64,000 nt of DNA from Pseudomonas saponiphila (GTDB lineage: Bacteria > Pseudomonadota > Gammaproteobacteria > Pseudomonadales > Pseudomonadaceae), in assembly GCF_900105185.1 (NCBI RefSeq), contig NZ_FNTJ01000003.1, positions 1 to 64,000 on the forward strand, given 5' to 3'. This document shows positions 8,211 to 31,559 of this stretch, piece by piece. The notes under the pieces were generated by a model. It was not told where the DNA came from. It made no database searches and saw nothing but the letters and a program-made list of their open reading frames with translations. How positions within the stretch are numbered: the stretch's first letter is position 1; each line of letters begins with the position of its first letter. The translations under genes were made by a program, and so were the position numbers.

Positions 8211-8555
8211 TCACTTTTCTCCAGCGCGAGTGGGGGTAAAAAACAGCCCATCAGGAGTGGCCGTCTGGTACTGCAAGCGTTTCTGCTCAGGCCAGATAAT
8301 CACGCTGATGGTTTCCTCCACGGGCTTGATCTGGCTAAGCATCCTTACAAGATCAAGCCCAGGAAGTGGGTGCTGCGCCTCAGCCAGTTTCAGTTCGGCC
8401 TGGGCGACAGCCAGAGCACGCTGCGCATTGGCAAGGTGCTCGGTAGCCTTTTGGTATTTGCTGTCACGCTGATCGATCACGTATTCACTGGCAGTGCAGG
8501 TGCCTGCTAGCGCAAACGTGATGGCGAGGGTGCAGCTGAGACGGGATTTGTTCAT
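8211..8555 (-). CDS. Small secreted protein of unknown function in tra operon
   Basis: 114 residues when started at MNKSRLSCTL, where AGGAGG sits about 10 bases upstream; an upstream in-frame extension to 8639 has no such site. A signal peptide is likely cleaved near CTAS/EYV, followed by a helical region rich in Ala, Gln and Glu (LANAQRALAVAQAELKLAEA). It ends two bases before the pilin ATG, so it is probably co-expressed with the pilin. No family recognised. Confidence 0.65.
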   Translation of the reverse strand: MNKSRLSCTLAITFALAGTCTASEYVIDQRDSKYQKATEHLANAQRALAVAQAELKLAEAQHPLPGLDLVRMLSQIKPVEETISVIIWPEQKRLQYQTATPDGLFFTPTRAGEK

Positions 8556-16427: not shown

Positions 16428-17693
16428 TTTTCATACCACCTACACGGTGGCGAGTAGGTGAGGATCGAGACGAAGCGCACCCTTGATACTTCAAGCCGCC
16501 TACACGGCGGCAAACGGACAGGCGCTCAGCCAGTCATTTAGCACTGCCCTTCAAGCCGCCTGTCCGGCGGCAAACTACGGCGGCGAGGTGAGGCCTTCGC
16601 AGGTCTGCCTTCAAGCCGCCTGTGCGGCGGCAAATGATGAGCGTCGGCAGGTGCTAGGCCGAATTCACCTTCAAGCCGCCTGTGCGGCGGCAAATTTCGA
16701 TACAGGCTAGCTGGCAGCCCTGCGGGCCCTTCAAGCCGCCTATACGGCGGCAAACTTCCTCAGCTCCATTAGCGTGAACTGGTTATACCTTCAAGCCGCC
16801 TATACGGCGGCAAACGGTGCATGTCCCCCGCGACAAGCGCAACAACTCCTTCAAGCCGCCTATACGGTGGCAAACCCGAGTCAAACACTCGTGCAGTAAC
16901 CCATATACCTTCAAGCCGCCTGTGCGGCGGCAAACTCGACCTCAACACGCTGTTGCCCGCGTATGTCCCTTCAAGCCGCCTATACGGCGGCAAACCGCAG
17001 GTTGTCAGCAAGCAAATCGCACTTCCAGCCTTCAAGCCGCCTATACGGCGGCAAACGTGCCGACTTGGCGTGCGTGAGTCGATGCGGCCCTTCAAGCCGC
17101 CTATACGGCGGCAAACTCAGAGCAAGCTGCGCGCGAGCGTGAGGCACACCTTCAAGCCGCCTATACGGCGGCAAACCATTTATGCGGGTTTTGGGGCGTA
17201 TGCTTTGACCTTCAAGCCGCCTATACGGCGGCAAACGCGAGCGGGCGGCGGGTGAGCGCTCCTGGTGGCCTTCAAGCCGCCTATACGGCGGCAAACTCGA
17301 ACGCATCGAGGTCGCGATGCAGAACTCTCCTTCAAGCCGCCTATACGGCGGCAAATTGCATATACGTGAAGTGATGCGTGAGATTGAACCTTCAAGCCGC
17401 CTGTTCGGCGGCAAATGGATGTTTACGCCGACGTGGCGGGGTACGACTCCTTCAAGCCGCCTATGCGGCGGCAAATCCTGGCAGCGTACGCGGCAGCGCA
17501 CCTTCAATCCTTCAAGCCGCCTGTACGGCGGCAAAACCTCAATCGATGCAGTTGGGACCCTATGATCAACCTTCAAGCCGCCTGCGCGGCGGCAAACAAT
17601 CAAGGATATTCGGGTAGACATGATCAACTGCCTTCAAGCCGCCTATACGGCGGCAAAGCCCTCAGCCTTCAAGCCGCCTGTCCGGCGGCGAAT
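16428..17693 (-). CRISPR. CRISPR array, 22 repeats of 28 bp, type IV-A
   Basis: Repeats start at 16428, 16488, then every 60 bp to 16968, 17029 and every 60 bp to 17509, then 17570, 17631 and 17666. Twenty spacers are 32-33 bp; the last gap (17659-17665) is only 7 bp. Read on the minus strand the repeat is GTTT, stem GCCGCC, loop GTATA, stem GGCGGC, then TTGAAGG. Cleavage at the base of the stem leaves an 8-base handle, so the array is probably transcribed in the same direction as csf5. The plan resembles type I-F repeats. The copy at 16428 is degenerate and marks the far end. No leader separates the array from csf5: the last repeat touches the csf5 stop codon. Confidence 0.97.
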
Positions 17694-18373
17694 TAAGCAG
17701 ATACGTCGGTTGGGTAAACCGCTGGAACCAGATCACCTGACCAGTACGGCACCTGCACCGTCAGTTCAGCTACTGGAACTTTGCGGTGGCCGCTGATCCG
17801 GTTCCAAACGTCCAGGGGGAGTGGCCGTGCAGGCGTGCCGTTCGGCATGATCCATGAGCAGTCACGCTCAGCAGGCATCTTTACCCAACTCACATCAAGG
17901 ATCTCGCCCGCGCCGGCGTTGGCCCTCCGGCCGAGCCCTGGGATGTTGTTTCGTATCATCTCGACGACTCGTTCAGGGTCGCCCTTGCCGAAGAAAACAA
18001 CAGTCTTTGCGTCAATGCCGGCGTAACTGCTCATGTTTGCTTTGTACGGGCCGCGCTGAGTAGTAACTGCAAGGTAGCGCTTCACCTTGCCGCGTGACTG
18101 GGGAGCGAAATGCTCGTCAGTCATGTCGGCCAGGCCCCGCAAGTTCATGATGCGCTGAACAACCGTGTGGCTGTAGCCGCCGGAGACGAAGGCGCAGCTC
18201 GCTTTGAAAATGCCGTCCTCGCGTTCAAGCGGAATATGCGCAATGGTGTCAGCCCCCATCAGGCCCTGCTCGCGAAACACAGCTGCGGACAGCAGGCTAT
18301 CGAGAGTTGTCCGTGGGCGGCTCATGACAAAGGGGGTGGCCAGCTTGATCACGAGTTTGAATGCAGTCGACAT
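17693..18373 (-). CDS. csf5: Csf5, Cas6-like crRNA-processing nuclease of type IV-A
   Basis: 226 residues starting MSTAFKLVIKLATPFV, a ferredoxin-like beta strand as in RAMP proteins, with a glycine-rich loop near the middle (IPGLGRRANAGAGEI). Csf5 cuts the repeat at the base of its hairpin and stays on the mature crRNA. It lies between csf4 and the array, the usual type IV-A place. Its ATG overlaps the csf4 stop (TGATG), and its own stop overlaps the first array repeat by one base. Confidence 0.85.
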   Translation of the reverse strand: MSTAFKLVIKLATPFVMSRPRTTLDSLLSAAVFREQGLMGADTIAHIPLEREDGIFKASCAFVSGGYSHTVVQRIMNLRGLADMTDEHFAPQSRGKVKRYLAVTTQRGPYKANMSSYAGIDAKTVVFFGKGDPERVVEMIRNNIPGLGRRANAGAGEILDVSWVKMPAERDCSWIMPNGTPARPLPLDVWNRISGHRKVPVAELTVQVPYWSGDLVPAVYPTDVSA

Positions 18374-20583
18374 CAGACCAGCTCCGCAGTGTGAAGTGAC
18401 CCGTCCGTGAGGAATATCCGGGAGGCATTGAAGCTGTCTTCAAAGCGCTCGGGGATGCAACCGGAGAATGCTTTGAGCACCCGCGGCCGACGAATCATCA
18501 GCACGTCATCAAGTGCCGTCGCGAACGACGCGGGGTAGGGGAAGCGGGGGTCACCGATCCAAACTTCAACCCGGTCGCTTCGCTGGCGAATACCACGACC
18601 CAGACCTTGCACAAGGCGACGACGGGCGTCAGCGTTTAGCTCTGCGAATTTGATGCTCTGGATCTTGTCATCGCTGTAGCCACGATGGCGCAGCACCGCT
18701 TCTTTGAGGCTCAGGCGGAAGCTGTTGATCGAGCCGAACGGGAGCCGGGTGATCACCAGATTCTGAACTTCACCGGGCAGGTCGAGGCCTTCCCAGCCGC
18801 CTGGCGTAATCATGACGGCGTTATCGCGCGACTGATATTGCTGCTTGAGCATGCTCATGTTGTCACCTGGTTTGGCAACAATCAGGCCGTCGAGGTCTTT
18901 GAGCCTTTCGCCGATGGCTTGCGTGTCGGCGTGGCTCAATGTCAGGACCAAGGTTTTCCCGTCGCCGGCGGCAGCTTCACGAACCATTGCTGCGGCGTAA
19001 TCGAGCCAAGCGGGGTTGGAGGCGGTGGCGTAATCCTCATCTTCTGCGGCCAGCCCTGTCGGGAGGGGGGCGTTCGGCGCTGGCAGCACAAAGAACATCT
19101 CACCGAAGTCAGGCGGCGCATCGAAGATCCGGTAAAGATCAGCAGTGACGTTGTGAATCGGGCGAGTCATGCCACGTTTGCAATGGCGCACCACGCCGAT
19201 CGAATCGGCAAAAGCGTCGAAAGCGATTGGCAAGCTTCTGCCTGGAGTCGCGAGTGTCGCCGAAGTGAACAGCGCAGCTCTCAGGTAACTGCGTGGCGGC
19301 ATCACGTCTTCATTGTCTTCGCCATCCCACTGCATAGGGGCGAGCATGCGCGTGATGATTCGCGCGGGCTCTGGATGGCCAACGCGCAGTGAAGGGAAAT
19401 GCCGGACAGGCGACCAGCTGATGATGCTTGTATTGCCTTTCGACCGGCTTGCTTTCTGCACATTGGCCAGATCGTTATAGCTGTCGCAGAAATCAGCAAG
19501 CAGCGCCTTCGAGTGGTCTTCTAGCTCGCCCTGTGGAGAGGAAAGCATGCCGGCAAACTTGGCGACGTGCGGCTCAAGAGCGGACAAAACACCATCGATG
19601 CGCTTCGCGATATTTTCGTTGAGCGCGGCCATCTTCGCGGTCCCTGGATCAATAGATTGGACCGCCGAGTAGAGGTTTCCGACGCAGCCAGTTATATCGG
19701 GCAGGTTGAAAGCGTCGGCAACGGATTGGGTCAGCCCATTGAAGCGGTGCATCGAAACGTCAGCGCCCAGCACCGACTCCGCAGCATCCGTCATCCGGTC
19801 AGCCTCGTCGCAGATCAGGATGCTCGCCGGGCGCGACGGGTTGAGGATCTTCGTCCAGCGCGAGGCGTCAAGCATTACGAGTGCGTGGTTGACGATCAGA
19901 ACGTCTGCGTTGTGGCTTTCTTCGAGAGCCAGCTCGTAAGCCTCGATTTCCTCAGTCGGTGAGTCGGCGCACAGGCAGAGCGACTTGGCATCCAGGCCGG
20001 CAGGCAGCTGACAGCCATTGCCCACTTCTGAAAGGTAATCTTCGACTGTCGGCAGGGTGTGATGATCGCGTTTCAGCCATTCAGTCAGGTCATTGACGAA
20101 TGCCTTTACATCGTCGTCATCTTTACTGTCGAGCATGCTTTTTAGGTTGAGGCACGACGACAGCGAAAGGTAGTTGCTCCGGCCGACACGGCGCGCATAG
20201 CGAACTATTACACCCAGCTCGTCATTCACCCAGCGCTGCGCACGAGGCGCATCATTGTTGATGATCTGCTGCTGCAATGCCTTCGTGAAGGTAGAAACGA
20301 TCACGCGCTCGCCGGTAAGCGCGGCGTAAGCAAAAGCGGGCACCAGGTAGCCAAGCGTCTTGCCCGTACCGGTAGCGCCTTGCAGCATGTTCACCGCAGC
20401 AGCTTTCTCGGCTTCGTCGTATCGGCAGAAGCCGCGGGCGGCGACCTTCGCGAACTCGTGTTGCTTGCTGTTGTAGCGATAAGTGCGTTTTTCGCCGTCA
20501 CCAGACCGGCCGCGCACCATTCTGCCGTTCGGTCCCAGCACGCTGTCGACGACGTGCAGCAGTCTCTTCTCAAGATCGTCCAT
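18373..20583 (-). CDS. csf4: Csf4 (CasDinG), DinG-family helicase of type IV-A
   Basis: 736 residues from the ATG at 20583; a TTG one codon upstream is unlikely. It has the superfamily 2 XPD/DinG motifs: Walker A GATGTGKT (about 69-76), motif II LICDEADRM, and motif VI QGLGRGIRQRSDRV. Cysteines occur between motifs I and II (SSCLNL, NGCQLP, LCLCADS), but a full iron-sulphur set is not clear. CasDinG is recruited to the crRNA complex on DNA and is needed for type IV-A interference. Its presence separates IV-A from IV-B. Both ends overlap neighbours as TGATG. Confidence 0.95.
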   Translation of the reverse strand: MDDLEKRLLHVVDSVLGPNGRMVRGRSGDGEKRTYRYNSKQHEFAKVAARGFCRYDEAEKAAAVNMLQGATGTGKTLGYLVPAFAYAALTGERVIVSTFTKALQQQIINNDAPRAQRWVNDELGVIVRYARRVGRSNYLSLSSCLNLKSMLDSKDDDDVKAFVNDLTEWLKRDHHTLPTVEDYLSEVGNGCQLPAGLDAKSLCLCADSPTEEIEAYELALEESHNADVLIVNHALVMLDASRWTKILNPSRPASILICDEADRMTDAAESVLGADVSMHRFNGLTQSVADAFNLPDITGCVGNLYSAVQSIDPGTAKMAALNENIAKRIDGVLSALEPHVAKFAGMLSSPQGELEDHSKALLADFCDSYNDLANVQKASRSKGNTSIISWSPVRHFPSLRVGHPEPARIITRMLAPMQWDGEDNEDVMPPRSYLRAALFTSATLATPGRSLPIAFDAFADSIGVVRHCKRGMTRPIHNVTADLYRIFDAPPDFGEMFFVLPAPNAPLPTGLAAEDEDYATASNPAWLDYAAAMVREAAAGDGKTLVLTLSHADTQAIGERLKDLDGLIVAKPGDNMSMLKQQYQSRDNAVMITPGGWEGLDLPGEVQNLVITRLPFGSINSFRLSLKEAVLRHRGYSDDKIQSIKFAELNADARRRLVQGLGRGIRQRSDRVEVWIGDPRFPYPASFATALDDVLMIRRPRVLKAFSGCIPERFEDSFNASRIFLTDGSLHTAELV

Positions 20584-21146
20584 CAAGCACCTCGTCCGTC
20601 GAAGCGTGGAATAAGCACACCCAGCCCGTATGAGCAGGGGTTGCCTTCAGTAAGGCTGGCTGCCGGTACGCGCTTGATGAAAAGGTGGAAGTTCTGGCCG
20701 GAGGTTCGGCTTTGCATCGGTACCGCGTACCGCGCTTGAATCCAGTCGCAGCTGATGTCTTGACTGGGTTCCCCGCGAGCGAGAGCGCGACGCTCAAGCC
20801 GGCGCAGGTGGCTGGGAGAGCCCTTGTCGGCCTTGCGGCTGCGGCGATAGCCGTAGGTAAACGTGGCATCAGCTGGCACTGGCTCAGTCCCGCTGAGCTT
20901 GATCACGAGACCTGCCGTAACCAGCGGAGAGAGACAGCCCAGGCAGCGCTCAACTGCGTCCTGCTCACCGAGAAGGCGCATAACCGGCCCGAAGCCGCCC
21001 CGTTGATCCTTCATCATCGGCCAGTCCACGACTACGGGGAGTCCAGCTTTCGCGGTCAGGTGAACGACCATGAGAATTCGCCCGTAGACCTCCAACAGAA
21101 TCCGGCCAGAGCCGGGGGCAAGGTCAGCGTAGTGAGTTATTAGCAT
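20583..21146 (-). CDS. csf3: Csf3, Cas5-like subunit of type IV-A
   Basis: 187 residues from the ATG at 21146 (MLITHYADLAPGSG), which overlaps the end of csf2. A later start at MVVHLTAKAGLPVVV (about 21071) also fits a Cas5-like protein, since the first RAMP strand begins there. The fold cue is VVHLTAKAGLPVVVDWPMM, like the opening of Cas5 proteins that cap the 5' handle. The further in-frame extension to 21212 lies inside csf2 and is unlikely. The order csf2-csf3-csf4-csf5 supports the call. Confidence 0.82.
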   Translation of the reverse strand: MLITHYADLAPGSGRILLEVYGRILMVVHLTAKAGLPVVVDWPMMKDQRGGFGPVMRLLGEQDAVERCLGCLSPLVTAGLVIKLSGTEPVPADATFTYGYRRSRKADKGSPSHLRRLERRALARGEPSQDISCDWIQARYAVPMQSRTSGQNFHLFIKRVPAASLTEGNPCSYGLGVLIPRFDGRGA

Positions 21147-22234
21147 GCGGCTGCGCTCGGAATCGACAGGTTGAACTGATCCCCTGCCAGGTAGTCTAGG
21201 AATGCCTGCCAAGCACTGAAAATCTCGCTAGTAGGAGGCGCGTCGACATTCAGTCCGACGAAAGGCTCCAGCACCAGCACCCCCAGTGAGGTTTTGCCAG
21301 CACCCGGCACTACCTCGAAGAGCTCCCAGCGTGCGCTGATCAGACCGCAGCCTGCTGCGATGTGAGCGCCCAGTGTCGGCATCGCAGCAAAACGGTCGAG
21401 GCTCACGAGCAGTGCGCCCAGTTCGACTTCATTCGCATTGTTGATCATGAAGCGGTGACGCATCACAGCGCCTTCTGGGATTGCCTGCCAGCCTGCCAGT
21501 GGCATGCCTACCGAATTTTTTGCTCCGGTTTCAACCTTGACGGCTTCAATGCTGGCTTTGAGCTGCTCGATCTTGTCGCTCAGCTCATTAACGCGGTCAG
21601 TGTCTTTCGCAGCGCGAGCGGTTTTTCGCGCCTTGTCGAGCGTAGCGATCTCCTTCTTGATCGCTGAGGCATCACGATTGCCCTCAGATTGAGCAATCAA
21701 GGCATTGATGTCTTCGTGAGACAGGAAAGCCACTTGGCTGCGGTCACGGTAGAGGTCGTCCGAGCGAACACCGCTGAATACGTGAGGCTGGCTGACCGAC
21801 TCACAGATAGCGTTACCGACAGCCAGGCGGCCATGGACCATGCCCATATAGCCCGCATCACCCGCGCCGAACAGGCTCAGCAGTACATTGCGCTCGCGCC
21901 ACATGGCCTCCTGATCGACAGTGGCCTTATCTTTCTTGTCCTCTCCCATAATCCCGCCGAGGGTCAGCAGATAGTGCTGATCAAGTGACAGGGGCTTGTC
22001 ATTACCTGTGCGCTTGATTTCGTTCTCGCGAAGAACATCGCGCAGGGCCCGGCGCAGCTTTCCGCGAATGCCGGTTGCGGGGAAATACAGACGGTTGCCC
22101 TCCGGAGTCATCATGTGCGGTACCGGGATTGGCAGATCGCTCCCGCCTTCAGCATCTTTCAGTGCTTTGCTGCAAGTGGCGAGCGGCTGCTCTGCTTTGA
22201 TTTCGCCTTCGAGTACATAGTGAGTCACGGTCAT
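21140..22234 (-). CDS. csf2: Csf2, Cas7-like backbone subunit of type IV-A
   Basis: 364 residues. YFPATGIRGKLRRALRDVL near residue 50 is typical of Cas7-group RAMP proteins, and the C-terminal GAHIAAGCGLISARWELF matches the last conserved strand. A lysine/glutamate-rich helical insertion lies around residues 190-235. Several copies of Csf2 coat the spacer part of the crRNA. It is the first gene of the minus-strand csf operon, and its start faces csf1 across 74 bp. Confidence 0.9.
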   Translation of the reverse strand: MTVTHYVLEGEIKAEQPLATCSKALKDAEGGSDLPIPVPHMMTPEGNRLYFPATGIRGKLRRALRDVLRENEIKRTGNDKPLSLDQHYLLTLGGIMGEDKKDKATVDQEAMWRERNVLLSLFGAGDAGYMGMVHGRLAVGNAICESVSQPHVFSGVRSDDLYRDRSQVAFLSHEDINALIAQSEGNRDASAIKKEIATLDKARKTARAAKDTDRVNELSDKIEQLKASIEAVKVETGAKNSVGMPLAGWQAIPEGAVMRHRFMINNANEVELGALLVSLDRFAAMPTLGAHIAAGCGLISARWELFEVVPGAGKTSLGVLVLEPFVGLNVDAPPTSEIFSAWQAFLDYLAGDQFNLSIPSAAAC

Positions 22235-22308
22235 TTGTTCGTTCTCCAGGTGGACAGTGTGGGAGTCGGTGAGTAATCTAACAGCAAATTATCCCCTAGA
22301 GAAGTGAT

Positions 22309-22977
22309 ATGCAAGAAATAGAACTCTGGTACGAATGCATCGGACAGTACCTGGCCCCTGAAAGCGACCCAGCAAGTTCCACCAAAGCTGGCGTCATGAC
22401 TCGGATGACAAAGGGTGTTGGACAGCACACGCTCGGAGCGGGTATCGATGCTTACTACATCGCCAGCAAGAGGAAGAGCTTTCTGATCGGCAAGATCGAA
22501 ATGCCTAACCTGCCGGGCCTTGAATTCGTCCCGAGTGAAGATGTCAGCGGTGAGAAGTACATCGCGCAGTGGCTTGTGAACCACGCTCCAGAGGATGAGC
22601 CCTGGATGATTGGCGTGATCGGAAACGCCAGCCCGAACGCAAGCATGAAGGTGTCACACCCGCTCGCGCTCTGTTGTTTTTGCGAGGCCAGCTCCGGCTT
22701 CGATTTTGACTTGGGCATTGTTCGCCAAGCCGTAGCCATCATTGGCGAACTGGACTGGAAGAAGGACATTGCGACTGCGCTCCACACATTCCAGTCGCGG
22801 CAACTGGCCAGCAGCATCGGCGACGAAGCCAAAATGGAGCGTGAGAACAAAAAGCTGCAAAAAGCTTTTGAGAAGACCCCTGAACTCAAGCCCGCGCTGC
22901 TTGCCCTGTGCAGACTGCCTCTGAAGGTGGGCTCCGGCGAGTACGAGGTTCTTTCGTGGTATAACCGCGTTCGCTGA
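22309..22977 (+). CDS. csf1: Csf1, Cas8-like large-subunit homologue of type IV-A
   Basis: 222 residues, divergent from csf2-csf5. Csf1 is expected to read the target-adjacent motif and the crRNA handle. The call rests on position, size and the rest of the locus being complete. In the sequence I see an alpha/beta N-terminal domain with a short cysteine cluster (LALCCFCEASSG) and a helical C-terminal part with a coiled stretch (KMERENKKLQKAFEKTPELK). AGAGAAGTGA precedes the ATG. The 354-base minus-strand frame opposite its 5' part is a shadow. Confidence 0.75.
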   Translation: MQEIELWYECIGQYLAPESDPASSTKAGVMTRMTKGVGQHTLGAGIDAYYIASKRKSFLIGKIEMPNLPGLEFVPSEDVSGEKYIAQWLVNHAPEDEPWMIGVIGNASPNASMKVSHPLALCCFCEASSGFDFDLGIVRQAVAIIGELDWKKDIATALHTFQSRQLASSIGDEAKMERENKKLQKAFEKTPELKPALLALCRLPLKVGSGEYEVLSWYNRVR

Positions 22978-22980
22978 TCA

Positions 22981-23055
22981 TCTTGCCGCCGAACAGGCGG
23001 TTGATAGCTAGAGAAGTGAGATGCACAGCACGCCGCCGCATAGGCGGTTTGGAAC
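22981..23055 (+). repeat. Two degenerate CRISPR repeats flanking a copy of the csf1 start region
   Basis: Repeat-like unit 1 (22981-23008) has TCTT, stem GCCGCC, loop GAACA, stem GGCGGT. Unit 2 (23028-23055) has stem GCCGCC, loop GCATA, stem GGCGGT, then TTGGAAC. They match the array repeat at about 19 and 20 of 28 positions and point along the plus strand, the direction of csf1. Between them, CTAGAGAAGTGAGATGCA (23008-23025) matches the csf1 translation start at 22296-22313 in 17 of 18 bases. The layout is that of a crRNA-like unit with a short (~19 nt) guide. The same stretch can also be read as a ribosome-binding site and ATG for a 42-codon frame (23021-23149). Confidence 0.7.
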
Positions 23056-23093
23056 CGTCAGCAGGTCGAATGCTTCTATTCTTCCTGTTGACT

Positions 23094-23132
23094 TCATCCT
23101 GGGAGTCCCAGTCATTGGGGCTTCCAGGATGA
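23094..23132 (+). other. Long hairpin downstream of csf1
   Basis: TCATCCTGG...AGTCCCA (23094-23110) pairs with TGGGGCTTCCAGGATGA (23116-23132), about 17 pairs including G-U. No T-run follows, so it is not a simple terminator. It may stabilise the 3' end of the csf1 / mini-repeat transcript. Confidence 0.5.
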
Positions 23133-23159
23133 CACTGCTGAACTGGTAACGTACTTACC

Positions 23160-24203: not shown

Positions 24204-25742
24204 ATGGCAACGTCCATCATCAATACGAAACTGGGTGAAAACCGCAACGTGGCTCGTGTCTGGCTGGAAGGTCAGAAATTATCCCGCGGTGGTGTCAATG
24301 TTGGTGCTCGCTATGCCCTGCACATGCAGGAAGGCTTCCAGCGTTTTGAGCTTCGCCCCGTTCCGGAAAACTACGTTGGCGAGACCTTCACGGTCAGTCG
24401 GCGTGAAAAGAACGGCATCGTTTTCCCGCTGTTCGAGATCCGTTCCGAAACTTTCCGTAAGTTGTTCGAGGTGTCGGCTAAGTTGAGGGTGATTATCCGG
24501 GATGCTCGGATCATCATTACTCGTTCGCAAATCGACATTAAGATTGCAGAGCGCGTTAAGCGCTTTATGGAAAAGTTGAAGAATGGCCAGAAGCTCGCAA
24601 CCGTAAGTTTGTTCCACGGCGGCGGGGTGCTCGACAAGTCCATTCATAGCGGCTTACAAAAAGCCGGTGTGGGTTCTTTTATCCAGGTTGGTGTTGAACT
24701 GGAAGATGCTTATCTGGAGTCTTCACTCCGGAATAACAAAGAACTTTGGAGCGAGGAATCGATCGCTATTTGTGGCGACATTAAGGAGATCAATCTGCAA
24801 GGTGGAAACATCCCGCAGGCGGATATCCTGGTGGCCGGTTTGCCCTGCACAGGAGCTTCAGTCGCAGGTCGCTCAAAAAATAAGATCAGTTGTGCTGAGG
24901 AACACTCTGCTGCTGGTTCTATGTTCGTCGATATGCTGGATTGGGTCAAGGCTAGTAATCCTGCAATGGTTATCTTGGAGAACGTGAAGCAATATGCGTC
25001 CACGGCATCCATGATGGTTATTCGCAGTGTTCTGACTTCGCTCGGTTATCGAATTAAAGAAGCAGTTCTCCAGGGTACCGATTTCGGTTCTCTTGAAAGT
25101 CGCGAGCGGCTAGTTGTGCTTGCCACAACTCCGGGAATTGCTGATGAGTTTGAGTTCGATAATGTGGTGCCTCTTCGCAAGAAGCCGGAAACCCTGAAAG
25201 CGATTATGGAGGACATTCCTCTGGATTCTGATCGCTGGAAGGATCTGACTTATCTGGCGGAGAAGGAAGAGCGCGATAAAGCCGCAGGGAAAGGATTTAC
25301 CCGTCAGCTGCTGACTGGTGATGAAGCTTCTTGCGGAACAATCGGGAAGTCCTATGCCAAGTATCGGTCTACCGAGCCGATGCTGATCCATCCCCTTCAG
25401 TCGGCGCTTAGCCGTCTGTTCACGCCGCAGGAGCACGCAGCGGCTAAGACGATCCCGTACGGAATGGTGGAGGGTAATTCCGAAACCGTGATGCACGAGA
25501 TCCTGGGCCAAAGCGTGATTTTCGCGAAGTTCGAGGCGTTCGCCTTTGCTGTAGGGATGATGCTCCAGTACACCCTGAACTTCGGTGAGCTAACCAGCTA
25601 CTGTGGTCAGGTGTGCGGTGATCTCGGCAAAAACTGTGGTCTTGGCAATATCTGCCAGCTAGGCGTTGATGCGCAAACCGAAATGCCTGATCCGGCAAGT
25701 TGGATTGCTGCTCACGCCGAAGACTATCTGTTGGCGGCGTAA
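24204..25742 (+). CDS. Solitary C5-cytosine DNA methyltransferase
   Basis: 512 residues. The catalytic part starts near residue 132 (ATVSLFHGGGVLDKSIHSG, AdoMet site), followed by LVAGLPCTGAS with the catalytic cysteine at about 215, LENVKQY (ENV motif) and SLESRERLVVLA (motif VIII-like). PCTG replaces the more common PCQG/PCPG. An N-terminal domain of about 130 residues has no match I can name. The C terminus has a four-cysteine cluster (YCGQVCGDLGKNCGLGNIC). No restriction enzyme is nearby, so it may protect plasmid DNA from host restriction. GGAG lies about ten bases before the ATG. Confidence 0.88.
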   Translation: MATSIINTKLGENRNVARVWLEGQKLSRGGVNVGARYALHMQEGFQRFELRPVPENYVGETFTVSRREKNGIVFPLFEIRSETFRKLFEVSAKLRVIIRDARIIITRSQIDIKIAERVKRFMEKLKNGQKLATVSLFHGGGVLDKSIHSGLQKAGVGSFIQVGVELEDAYLESSLRNNKELWSEESIAICGDIKEINLQGGNIPQADILVAGLPCTGASVAGRSKNKISCAEEHSAAGSMFVDMLDWVKASNPAMVILENVKQYASTASMMVIRSVLTSLGYRIKEAVLQGTDFGSLESRERLVVLATTPGIADEFEFDNVVPLRKKPETLKAIMEDIPLDSDRWKDLTYLAEKEERDKAAGKGFTRQLLTGDEASCGTIGKSYAKYRSTEPMLIHPLQSALSRLFTPQEHAAAKTIPYGMVEGNSETVMHEILGQSVIFAKFEAFAFAVGMMLQYTLNFGELTSYCGQVCGDLGKNCGLGNICQLGVDAQTEMPDPASWIAAHAEDYLLAA

Positions 25743-27359: not shown

Positions 27360-28318
27360 GGTCTTCTCTTTCTTTCAGTGTGAATCGCTGCTGAAGGCTG
27401 ACGACCCCGGTCCGTGGTTTCGGAGCAAGACAGACGTCACCAATGCGCTGATGCTCAGTACGGCGGCAATGACAACGATAACAATCTCAAAACTGCGATC
27501 AAACGCTGTGGAGGCGGCTGCAATGAGGGCGGCACTATCTGTGCCGTTTTGGGCCGCTATCGCGAGCGCTTGGTCCATGCTGTCACGCGCATTATCGGAG
27601 ACGCCTGCGGGCAAAACCACGCCAGAAGAATAAAGACCCGCCAACAAGCTGCCAAGCAGTGCGACCGCCAACAACGCGCCGAATTCATAGGAAACGCCTT
27701 CGACTGAAGAAGCCATGCCTGCTCTCGAAGAGGGTGCATTACCGACGACCGCGCTGGAGGCGACTGACATCACCGAACCCAGTCCAAACCCGGTCACTAC
27801 CAGGCCGGCAATGACCCATCCCAGGCTGACATGCAAGCCGAAGCTGGTCAAGAAGACACCTACAGTACCCAACGCAAGACCACCACCGATGAGCACAAGC
27901 AAGCCGATCCGGTGCACAAATGCGCCACCGAGCACTACGCTGGGCAGTGCTCCTAGTGCAACGGCTGACACCAACAGTCCAGCCTCCAGAGGGCTAAACC
28001 CTGCGACAAGCTGAAAACGCTGGGTAACGATCAGTTGCAGACCGGCAACGCCGAACAAGGCAGATGCACAGGCCAACACACCTGCCATAAGCGCTGAATT
28101 GCGAAAAATAGCGAAATCCAGCAGAGGGTAAGTAAGACGCGCCTGGCGACGGACGAAGAGCATGCCCGCAACAACGGTGACGGCCAAAGCCGTCCCGGCA
28201 AGTGCCCAGGAAGAAGGTGCATGGGTGCGGATTTCGGTGAACGTGACCGAGCGTTTCGCTAATACGTGACCGGTGCTTCCACCCCGGTTGCGCGGGTTCT
28301 GGATTGTAATCGCATCGG

Positions 28319-29068
28319 TCACGATGCGGCTTGTTCCTCGGCTTTTTTTCGGCGCAGCGACTCGCCTTTCATCGTCAGTCGGTAGGCGTTGTGCACCAGG
28401 CGGTCGAGGATGGCATCGGCCAGGGTCGGGTCGTTGATCCAGCCGTGCCAGTGCTCGATGGGCAGTTGGCTCGTCAGGATGGTGGAGCGGCTGCCAGCGC
28501 GGTCGTCGATCACCTCCAGCAGGTCATGCCGGGCTCCTTCCTCCAGCGGGGCTAGCGCCCAGTCGTCCAGCACCAGGACGTCGACCTTTGCCAGCTGTTG
28601 CAGGGTACGGCCGAAGCTGCCGTCGCCATGAGCGATGCGCAGTTGTTCCAGCAGGCGCGGGGTGCGCAGGTACAGGGTGCTATAGCCCTGGCGGCAGGCC
28701 TGGTTGCCCAGGGCGCAGGCCAGCCAGGTTTTGCCGGCACCGGTCGGGCCGGTCAGCAGCAGGTTGTGCTGCTGGCGGATCCAGTCGCCACTGGCCAGGG
28801 TGGCGATCAGACGCTCGTCCAGGGCGCGTCCGGTGCGGCGGTCGAGATCTTCCAGGCAGGCGTTGGCGTACTTGAGCTTGGCCTTCTTGCGCAGCCGTAC
28901 CAGGCGCTGGTTGTCACGCCAGGCCAGTTCGCGGTCGAGCAGTAGGCCGAGGCGTTCATCGAAGCTCAGGCTGTGGCTGGCCGGCAGCGTCCATTGCTCT
29001 TCCAGGGCGCGGGCCATGCCGTCCAGGCGTAGCTGGTGCAGTTGATTCAGGGTGTGTTGCGGCATCAT
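28319..29068 (-). CDS. istB: IstB helper ATPase, copy 2
   Basis: 249 residues, same protein as the istB at 5596-6345. The overlapping GTG at its stop starts the frame that runs out into the 3' half of the MFS gene. Confidence 0.93.
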
Positions 29069-30641
29069 CGAACAGCTCCTGTTGCGGGGGTTGGTAGTAG
29101 TCGGCGCCACGGACGTTCTCGTGGTCGCCGGGTAAGGTCGTTTCGGCGGCACGCTGGGGCAGCGGCTGTTGATCCAGGCCTTGCTGGAGCAGGTTGCGCA
29201 CGCTGCGCCCGGTGAAGGCGCGCAGGTGTACGGCACGTTCGGCAGCGGCTTCCAGGCGTGCATTGCCATAGCGCCGGGCCAGCGAGAGCAGGCCGAGGCA
29301 GGCGCGGTAGCCCATCTCCGGGTGCGGCTTGTGGGTCAGTTGGTGATCGATCAGTTGGCGCGTGTAGGGGCCGATCCGCGCGCCCCAGTCGAGCAGGCGT
29401 TGTGGCGTCCATTCGCGATGCGCCTGGTGCGCCGCGGGCATGTGCTCGCGCTGGGTACTGTAAGCGCCGCGTCGCCCCAGCAGCAGGTGGCTGGCCACCC
29501 GCCGGTTGCCATGCAGCACTTCCAGGGTGTGTGCCGTCAGTCGCACGTCCACGTTCTGCCGGGCCAGGGCGGAGGGCACGCTGTAGAAGCTGCCATTGAC
29601 CTCGATGTGGTAGTCGATGCTGACCTTGCAGCGCTTGAAGGTGGCGACCTCGTAGGGATGCACCGGCAGCGCTCGCAAGGCCGGGCGATCCAGGCGCTCG
29701 AACCAGTCGCGCCGGCAGCCATCGAGCCGCTTGAACGGGCGCCGATTCAGATCCTCCAGCAGCTCGGCGATGGCCTGGTTAAGCGCATGCAGGCTGAAGA
29801 ACTGCCGATGGCGCAGCCGCGCCATGATCCAGCGCTCGACCACCTGCACCGCCACCTCGGCCTTGGCCTTGTCCTGAGGCTTGCGTGGCCGTGCCGGCAG
29901 GATCACCGTCTGGTAATGACGCGCGCACTCCAGCGTGGCCCGGTTCAGGCCCGGCTCGTAGCGATCCGGCTGGGCGACCAGGGCGCGCGGATTGTCCGGC
30001 ACAACCATTTCCGGCACGCCGCCAAAGTAGGTCAGAGCCTGGCCCAGCGAGGTCAGCCAGTCCACCTGGGTTTCGCCTGGCGTCGCGCAGGCATAGGTGT
30101 AATTCGAGGCGCCCAGGGCGGCGACGAAGATGTGCGCCCGGCGCACTTCGCCGGTGGCCGGGTCGACCACCGGCAGCGTCGGCCCGGCATAGTCGATGAA
30201 TAGCTTCTCGCCCGCACGGTGCAGCTGACGCATCGAACGTTTGAGCGTCTGGGCGTAGCGCCGGTAGTGCTCGACGAACTGGGTGTAGCGGTAGGTCGGC
30301 TGGCCCGCATGCGCGGCGAGATATTCCTCCCACAGCAGCTGCAAGGTCACGCCCTTGCGTCGCAACTCGCGGTGGATGCTCAGCACATCGGGCAGCACTC
30401 GCTCACCGCGCGGCTTGTTCGTCGACGTCGGTGCAAACAAGGCGGCCGCCAGCGCGGCCTCGTCCATGGCCACCAGCGCCGGCCAGTCCAGCCCGGCCAC
30501 CCGCGCCGCCGCGATGTACTTGCTAACCACGCCCTTGGACAGCTGCAAGGCACGGGCAATCTTCTCGTGGGACAAGCCGGCCTCAAACTTGAGGCGCAGA
30601 CATTCTTTGATGTTTCGCATGGCTACTCGCGGCGCCGCCAT
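28956..30641 (-). CDS. istA: IstA transposase, copy 2
   Basis: 561 residues, same protein as the istA at 6233-7918; reading frame intact. Confidence 0.93.
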
Positions 30642-31559
30642 CTTCCTCTCCCGAAATCGGTCGAGGATGGCGGCGCATCAGGTCATGCGCAACGAAGGGG
30701 AAGGCTTTCGCTAAGTCGTGACCGGCGATTTCGGTAAGCCGTGACCACCTGTTTCGGAACAGGCGGAAAATCGGTCACGTTGCTACCGAAATGAGCGGTC
30801 ACGCGTTAGCGAAATGACCGGTCACGATCAACCGAAACGGCCGGTCACGGTGCTCCGAAATCCGCACATGGGCAACCTCTTTGATGGTGACAACCAGACC
30901 GGACAGTGCAAACAAGGCCTGCACTGCAGAGATCAGATCCCATGGTTTGGATGTATCTGGCTTCACTCGCGGCGTCACGACCAATGCACTGACGAGTGCA
31001 GCGATGACCACCGGTACGTTGAGCAGGAAGACCGAGCCCCACCAGAAGTGATTGAGCAACAATCCACCCACGATGGGGCCGAGCGCGCTTCCGACAATGG
31101 CCATGCACCCCCATATGGCGAGCGCCAGATTCCTCTCGCGCTCATCCCTGAAAGTGATGAAGATCAGAGCTAGCGTGGAGGGCATCATGGCTGCCGCACC
31201 CACAGCCAGCAACGCACGCGCACCAATCAGCACGGAGGCAGTTGGCGCGAACGCGGCTATTATTGACGCAAGGCCGAACACGCACAGCCCGCCCAAAAAC
31301 ATCTCCCGGTGCCCGATGCGGTCACCAAGCGTTCCGGTGCTGAGCAGCATCCCGGCCATCACCAGTGGATAGGCGTTGATGATCCACAGCGCTTGCAGGC
31401 TGCTGGCCCCCAAGTCACGCGTCAGAGTGGGCAACGCGGTGTACAGGATCGAGTTGTCCAGGGTAAGCAGAAGAAGCGCTGCTGCGACGGTCACAAGGAG
31501 GGTCCACCGTCGGCCTTTTGGGGTTGTCATATTTAGTGCCAAGAGTTGCAGAGTCATTT

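Follow-up and report, generated by a model that had tools for sequence, protein, structure and literature searches.

A putative self-targeting mini-CRISPR unit beside csf1 in a type IV-A locus of Pseudomonas saponiphila

Does a type IV-A CRISPR-Cas system carry a guide directed at one of its own genes? The question is raised by a short segment just past csf1 in a 64,000-nucleotide stretch of Pseudomonas saponiphila DNA (the window), for which the original prediction proposed a degenerate mini-CRISPR with a guide-like copy of the csf1 start region. The surrounding locus has the content expected of type IV-A, with csf2, csf3, dinG and cas6 next to a CRISPR array, and a Csf1 (Cas8) subunit by predicted fold, Csf1 being the Cas8 of type IV. 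The features of the locus are as follows.

16428..17699, minus strand: main CRISPR array, units mostly 60 bp, repeat about GTTTGCCGCCGTATAGGCGGCTTGAAGG, 8-nt handle CTTGAAGG
17693..18373, minus strand: csf3 (Cas5); PADLOC typeIV_Cas5, E 4.5e-52; NCBIfam TIGR03116, E 1.4e-11, under the curated cut-off
18373..20586, minus strand: dinG/csf4 helicase; PADLOC typeIV_DinG, E 1.9e-240
20583..21212, minus strand: cas6/csf5, Csy4-like crRNA endonuclease; Pfam PF09618, E 2.3e-9; PADLOC typeIV_Cas6, E 2.6e-82
21140..22234, minus strand: csf2 (Cas7), divergent from csf1; PADLOC typeIV_Cas7, E 1.1e-78
22251..22279, plus strand: promoter-like TGGACA-17-TAATCT upstream of csf1, found by eye
22294..22296, plus strand: CCC, 5' flank of the putative self-target
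22297..22313, plus strand: putative self-target, comprising the csf1 ribosome site, start codon and first two bases of codon 2, paired with guide positions 1-17
22309..22977, plus strand: csf1 (Cas8-like subunit by predicted fold), 222 aa
22985..23000, plus strand: hairpin of degenerate repeat 1, 7 bp past the csf1 stop
23001..23008, plus strand: crRNA-like handle TTGATAGC
23009..23027, plus strand: 19-nt guide TAGAGAAGTGAGATGCACA, between the handle and repeat 2
23021..23149, plus strand: 42-codon ORF from the ORF list, judged incidental
23032..23055, plus strand: hairpin and tail of degenerate repeat 2, 47 bp after repeat 1

Spacers of the main array are ~32 nt in most units of the window; at the csf3-proximal end (17638-17688) two repeats follow each other at a distance of 35 bp, with room for a spacer of only about 7 nt. 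An Rfam search gave CRISPR-DR4 matches below threshold for the main array, plus one sRNA match at chance level, and nothing at the mini-CRISPR unit. A C-5 cytosine DNA methylase gene (24204-25742, Pfam PF00145) adjoins the CRISPR locus, and at 27375-31557 transposase-like ORFs (istA/istB type, read by eye from the ORF list) lie between two ORFs resembling parts of one transporter gene.

The identity of csf1 had been taken as given. It stands insofar as the product has a predicted Csf1 fold, by which it is probably Csf1 (Cas8); no Pfam, NCBIfam or PADLOC model names the gene, and annotated plasmid relatives label it 'hypothetical protein'. HMM libraries would score csf1 as absent here, though a gene with the Csf1 fold exists in the locus. 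Subtype IV-A2 is marked by the absence of Csf1 (PMC11519345, extract). The present locus, which we do not assign to that subtype, is an example of how a divergent csf1 can escape detection, and type IV-A loci regarded as 'csf1-less' may need re-examination. Upstream of csf1, a consensus scan found no standard promoter; read by eye, the promoter-like pair follows a pattern, TRGACA-17-TARKCT, that recurs upstream of csf1 in three Pseudomonas relatives.

Two repeat-like hairpins in the orientation of csf1 had been predicted behind the gene. Outside the main array, which lies on the minus strand, the repeat-hairpin pattern occurs only at 22985-23000 and 23032-23047, both times in the csf1 orientation, and the unit has the form of CreR-type regulators, a degenerate repeat-spacer-repeat inside a cas locus whose guide is in part complementary to the beginning of one of that locus's own cas genes, here csf1. 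The predicted 18-mer copy is also found: CTAGAGAAGTGAGATGCA (23008-23025) and CTAGAGAAGTGATATGCA (22296-22313) agree at 17/18 bases, the first 12 unbroken. We number the spacer on the assumption that the handle has 8 nt, like that of the main array, which places the handle end at 23008, the spacer start at 23009 and the mismatch at spacer position 12; the six-base mismatch spacing considered below is independent of this assumption. In these terms spacer positions 1-17 are identical to 22297-22313, position 12 excepted.

Raw identity alone is a weak test of this match, because 261 of 2810 sampled 18-mers match equally well (at least 17 positions) somewhere in the window; 256 of these are exact 18/18 copies, presumably duplicated stretches. 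When 18 kb were scanned for 17-mers identical at 15 positions, with positions 6 and 12 free, two diagonals appeared beyond those of the array with itself, one joining the guide to the csf1 start and the other the repeat to the array. With the same two positions free, the guide pattern has just two mismatch-free occurrences in the 7.38-Mb genome, its own copy in the unit and the csf1 start, and two further sites match it with 2 mismatches.

The relatives in which this csf1 can be read are a plasmid of P. paraeruginosa (NZ_CP027167, L001), P. rhodesiae (L003), P. chengduensis (L004) and a plasmid of Halomonas sp. KO116 (L002), whose Csf1 is 27% identical (alignment A1). With the window these make five distinct loci, L001 and L003 being close kin. 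Searches with csf1 gave three plasmid records and two loci on genome contigs, and none in phages or viral contigs; csf2 and dinG, searched in viral contigs, likewise gave nothing. A search with the csf1 alignment matched 2/398 in the genus, 2/398 in the family, 1/390 in the order, and 0/56 and 0/13 in two further genera, all genome matches being the window, L006 (identical to L003) or L011 (csf1 DNA identical to L004). The product has 18 protein homologues. The degenerate two-hairpin unit with its 47-bp spacing lies 7-64 bp past the csf1 stop in the window and in 4/4 readable relatives, as against main-array units of about 60 bp in the window, L001, L004 and L002, and the TTGATAG of the handle is unchanged across the four Pseudomonas loci. 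Minimum-energy folds keep both repeat hairpins in the window, L001 and L003, and the first alone in L004 and L002; the folding z-scores are modest (window -2.1, L001 -2.8, L003 -2.4, L004 -1.7, L002 -0.8). In P. rhodesiae one extra near-canonical unit stands in front of the mini-array (L003:6009-6066), and its spacer resembles a spacer of the L001 main array (86% over 46 bases, E 3e-6), which suggests that main arrays and mini-arrays exchange material.

If the unit is a guide, it should follow its target from locus to locus, and alignment of related type IV-A loci shows the guide changing together with the csf1 start across the window and three other Pseudomonas loci. The target is variable in 10 of 17 columns among these four, and in each of the 8 that remain when 6 and 12 are set aside the guide carries the same changes. 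Compared with its own csf1 start over positions 1-17, minus 6 and 12, the guide scores 15/15 in the window, L001, L003 and L004; 35 main-array spacers taken as controls reach at best 11 (20 spacers), 12 (14) or 13 (1) of 15. These controls come from the window (19), L001 (9), L004 (3) and L002 (4), the L003 stretch being without a main array, and the extraction pattern missed some spacers. Guides paired with the targets of other loci differ at 4-7 of 15 positions, L001 and L003 being interchangeable. The same 17-mer scan returns the guide/csf1 pair as the sole diagonal, or one of two, in each of the four Pseudomonas loci.

The mismatches themselves are not scattered. Within the 17 nt, 6/6 guide-target mismatches in the four Pseudomonas loci fall at positions 6 or 12 (P 7.5e-7 for random placement, and 6.4e-6 without L001, the close kin of L003), and an extended comparison shows that guide and target differ only at subsets of positions 0, 6, 12, 18 and 19, where 0 is the last handle base. 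In solved IV-A1 and IV-A3 complexes every sixth target nucleotide is deflected by the Cas7 thumb, and CRISPRi by the P. oleovorans IV-A1 system is unaffected by a mismatch at position 6 (PMC11519345, extract). The mismatch pattern would thus be the footprint expected from a Cas7 filament reading the guide; neither a duplicated ribosome site nor translational selection would produce a six-base spacing. The reading of the segment as a self-targeting guide therefore appears supported, through the covariation and through the confinement of mismatches to the positions that Cas7 flips. Binding through a 17-nt match is not assured, because mismatches farther along the spacer weaken binding in IV-A1 and IV-A3: in the extract of PMC11519345, changes at 17-20 abolish IV-A1 interference and lower its binding in vitro, changes at 13-17 or 21-24 likewise lower IV-A1 binding, and changes at 13-17, 19-23 or 25-29 strongly reduce DNA binding by IV-A3, all in tests that, in that extract, used no guide as short as 19 nt.

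The flank of the target is also shared, with CC at -2,-1 in all five self-targets. From searches with the main-array spacers we read the flanks of four matches, of which 2/4 have CC and 4/4 have C at -1. These are an AAA ATPase gene of pBYT5-1 (E 5e-3, flank GCC), kfrA of pMBUI6 (E 0.2, flank TCC) and the Alcaligenes plasmid pNY11312-NR, matched by the last main-array spacer (16457-16487) at 29/31 (E 3e-2, flank GGC), each match beginning at the spacer start, and Halomonas PA16-9 (E 2e-2, flank AGC), where it does not. A 5'-CC PAM is possible on these sequences. A match in Nitratireductor was dropped since it spans the repeat. The pNY11312-NR match lies about 0.7 kb after trfA, which fits plasmid targeting.

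Halomonas is the weakest of the five cases. Its unit is doubled. The guide, GTATATAATTTTTAG, is complementary to the opposite strand of the csf1 leader, at 12/12 of positions 1-14 minus 6 and 12, a score that 0/1000 intergenic shuffles reach; the mismatch at position 12 recurs, and the guide fails at 15 and 17. Over positions 1-17 its 13/15 equals the best of the 35 control spacers and is reached by 1/1000 intergenic shuffles, and the 17-mer diagonal scan did not recover the pair. If real, the opposite-strand match would suggest that DNA is the target and that the guide is independent or renewed.

Eight other type IV loci (L007-L010 and L019-L022; four plasmid, four genomic) were scanned for self-matching 17-mers, covering the best six diagonals per locus and, for L010 and L022, the remainder in bins of which one short-distance bin each was inspected by letter. 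Within this scope 7/8 loci gave no comparable unit. Self-matches in L007 and L010 were set aside as chance, being without flanking repeats, as were the pairs in the remaining loci, L022 alone having a repeat-flanked match. This locus, from a distant type IV-A genome of the same class, has I-E-like repeats in a short array directly before csf2, and the last array unit (L022:9242-9315) measures 46 bp, where the others measure 59-61. The 17-nt guide of this last unit, CGTCATCGGCCGAATAC, matches 17/17 on the minus strand at the predicted start of cas6 (8406-8422); 17 other spacers reach at most 13/17. The cas6 gene (PADLOC Cas6_0_IVA3/Cas6e, E about 1e-12) precedes that array, and its predicted start is the ATG of the ORF list. 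The case suggests that the device may occur in more than one lineage, yet it is not general. A loose motif scan of viral contigs gave at least 120 matches, which we took as chance and did not use.

Other explanations of the segment have to be set against this evidence. The 18-mer could be a second translation start, with a copied csf1 ribosome site serving the small ORF and the hairpins of no significance; the 42-codon ORF is present where it had been predicted, and an ATG with an upstream purine stretch lies within the guide in the four Pseudomonas loci. Were this so, relatives would keep the 18-mer only inside a translated small ORF, but the ORF is not conserved across those loci: its counterparts have 42, 45, 45 and 31 codons and are alike only in the near-identical L001 and L003 and through the guide and repeat. 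The Halomonas guide is moreover antisense and without an ATG, and duplication followed by drift would not restrict mismatches to positions 6 and 12, all of which makes a second start scarcely credible. Nor do we favour a vestige, in which the end of a former second array has decayed and its accidental self-spacer has lost its function, although the repeats are degenerate, most of all in L004, and P. rhodesiae retains the extra near-canonical unit with a spacer in common with the L001 main array. Decay would not keep co-varying guides, the 47-bp spacing in 5/5 loci and the TTGATAG handle in four, and functional ectopic units commonly have degenerate repeats (PMC9458426, extract), so we regard loss of function as very unlikely.

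A crRNA for plasmid competition, silencing the csf1 of incoming kindred plasmids and not the system's own, would agree with the matches of array spacers in these systems to an AAA ATPase gene on a plasmid (E 5e-3) and to kfrA (E 0.2), although both E-values are weak. Each guide, however, fits its own csf1 best and is 4-7/15 off the others (L001/L003 excepted), as expected of a target in cis, and none of the 35 main-array spacers tested exceeds 13/15 in its own locus; this explanation is improbable. We also considered membership in the CreTA or CrePA class, in which the guide acts against an adjacent toxin gene, and rejected it: the sole mismatch-free site in the genome besides the unit itself is the csf1 start, and the product of that gene has the Csf1 fold.

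What we consider probable is that the segment is a self-targeting, CreR-like autoregulatory mini-CRISPR of the type IV-A system. Its anatomy, the covariation, the mismatch periodicity, the conserved length and position of the unit and the predicted Csf1 fold are what the analysis shows; from them we infer transcription, processing, complex formation, repression and a physiological role, as follows. The unit would be transcribed together with csf1, the simple reading because it shares the orientation of csf1 and follows closely behind it. Cas6/Csf5 would cut after both hairpins and release a short crRNA of 8-nt handle and 19-nt guide, on which Csf2 (Cas7), Csf3, Csf5 and Csf1 would assemble. 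Since the Pseudomonas guide has the sense of the csf1 mRNA, it can bind only the template DNA strand, and the complex would do so over the csf1 ribosome site and start codon, beside the 5'-CC, hindering csf1 transcription; the TRGACA-17-TARKCT pair, read by eye in four loci, would put it immediately downstream of the transcription start. With Csf1 and free complex in abundance, csf1 and the unit would decrease, and when main-array crRNAs absorb the subunits, repression would relax. The brake would act on csf1 first, because the other csf genes run divergently, and csf1 would be a sensible control point because Cas8 with Cas5 touches the PAM in solved complexes (PMC11519345, extract). The short guide (19 nt, 17 of them in the target register) may permit binding without full DinG-driven interference on the system's own replicon.

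Mini-arrays with two repeat-like elements and a spacer partly complementary to cas promoters, often that of cas8, were reportedly described by Shmakov et al. in 2023, mostly in type I and also in V-A, type IV reportedly not being named; the unit here likewise has two repeat-like elements and a spacer directed at its cas8, csf1. CreR, a crRNA-like regulator of cas operons, has been described in types I and V-A (PMC12737573, extract). The present putative unit is of the same kind in anatomy and logic, although its effector would be a type IV-A complex with DinG, its guide is only 19 nt, its target is the start of a csf1 divergent from the other csf genes, and the Halomonas guide reads the opposite strand. 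CreA of CreTA combines one or two degenerate repeats with a partly complementary spacer-like guide for Cascade (PMC9458426, extract); degenerate repeats and guide are in common, whereas here the target is a cas gene and there is no toxin. A type IV-A spacer of Pseudomonas oleovorans targets host pilN, a natural case of gene repression by a type IV-A complex (PMC11656645, extract), and differs in that a host gene is its target, whereas here a dedicated unit would act on the system's own gene. Among the matches listed in openly licensed literature (titles and abstract openings), none reports that a type IV system regulates itself through a unit of its own. The apparent novelties are a type IV effector, a guide of 19 nt, targeting of the csf1 start and the change of strand.

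We give an even chance to a wider reading, in which type IV-A systems would use dedicated short-guide crRNAs (17-19 nt) to form a reduced complex that binds without interfering and only gauges the supply of Cas8. The trait would have more than one origin, with a sense guide against csf1 in Pseudomonas, an antisense guide against the csf1 leader in Halomonas and one against the cas6 start in L022, and the type IV-A subtype called 'csf1-less' would be so named because its csf1 is divergent and under separate control.

Sequence evolution by itself retraces the six-nucleotide base-flipping of Cas7, which indicates independently that a Cas7 filament reads the guide, and the locus brings to light a probable Cas8 subunit missed by current profiles. 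If the self-targeting reading is true, type IV, in which the complexes for the most part act by repression and not by cutting, joins types I and V-A in having RNA-guided self-control of cas genes, and the unit is a candidate natural CRISPRi feedback circuit that is directly testable.
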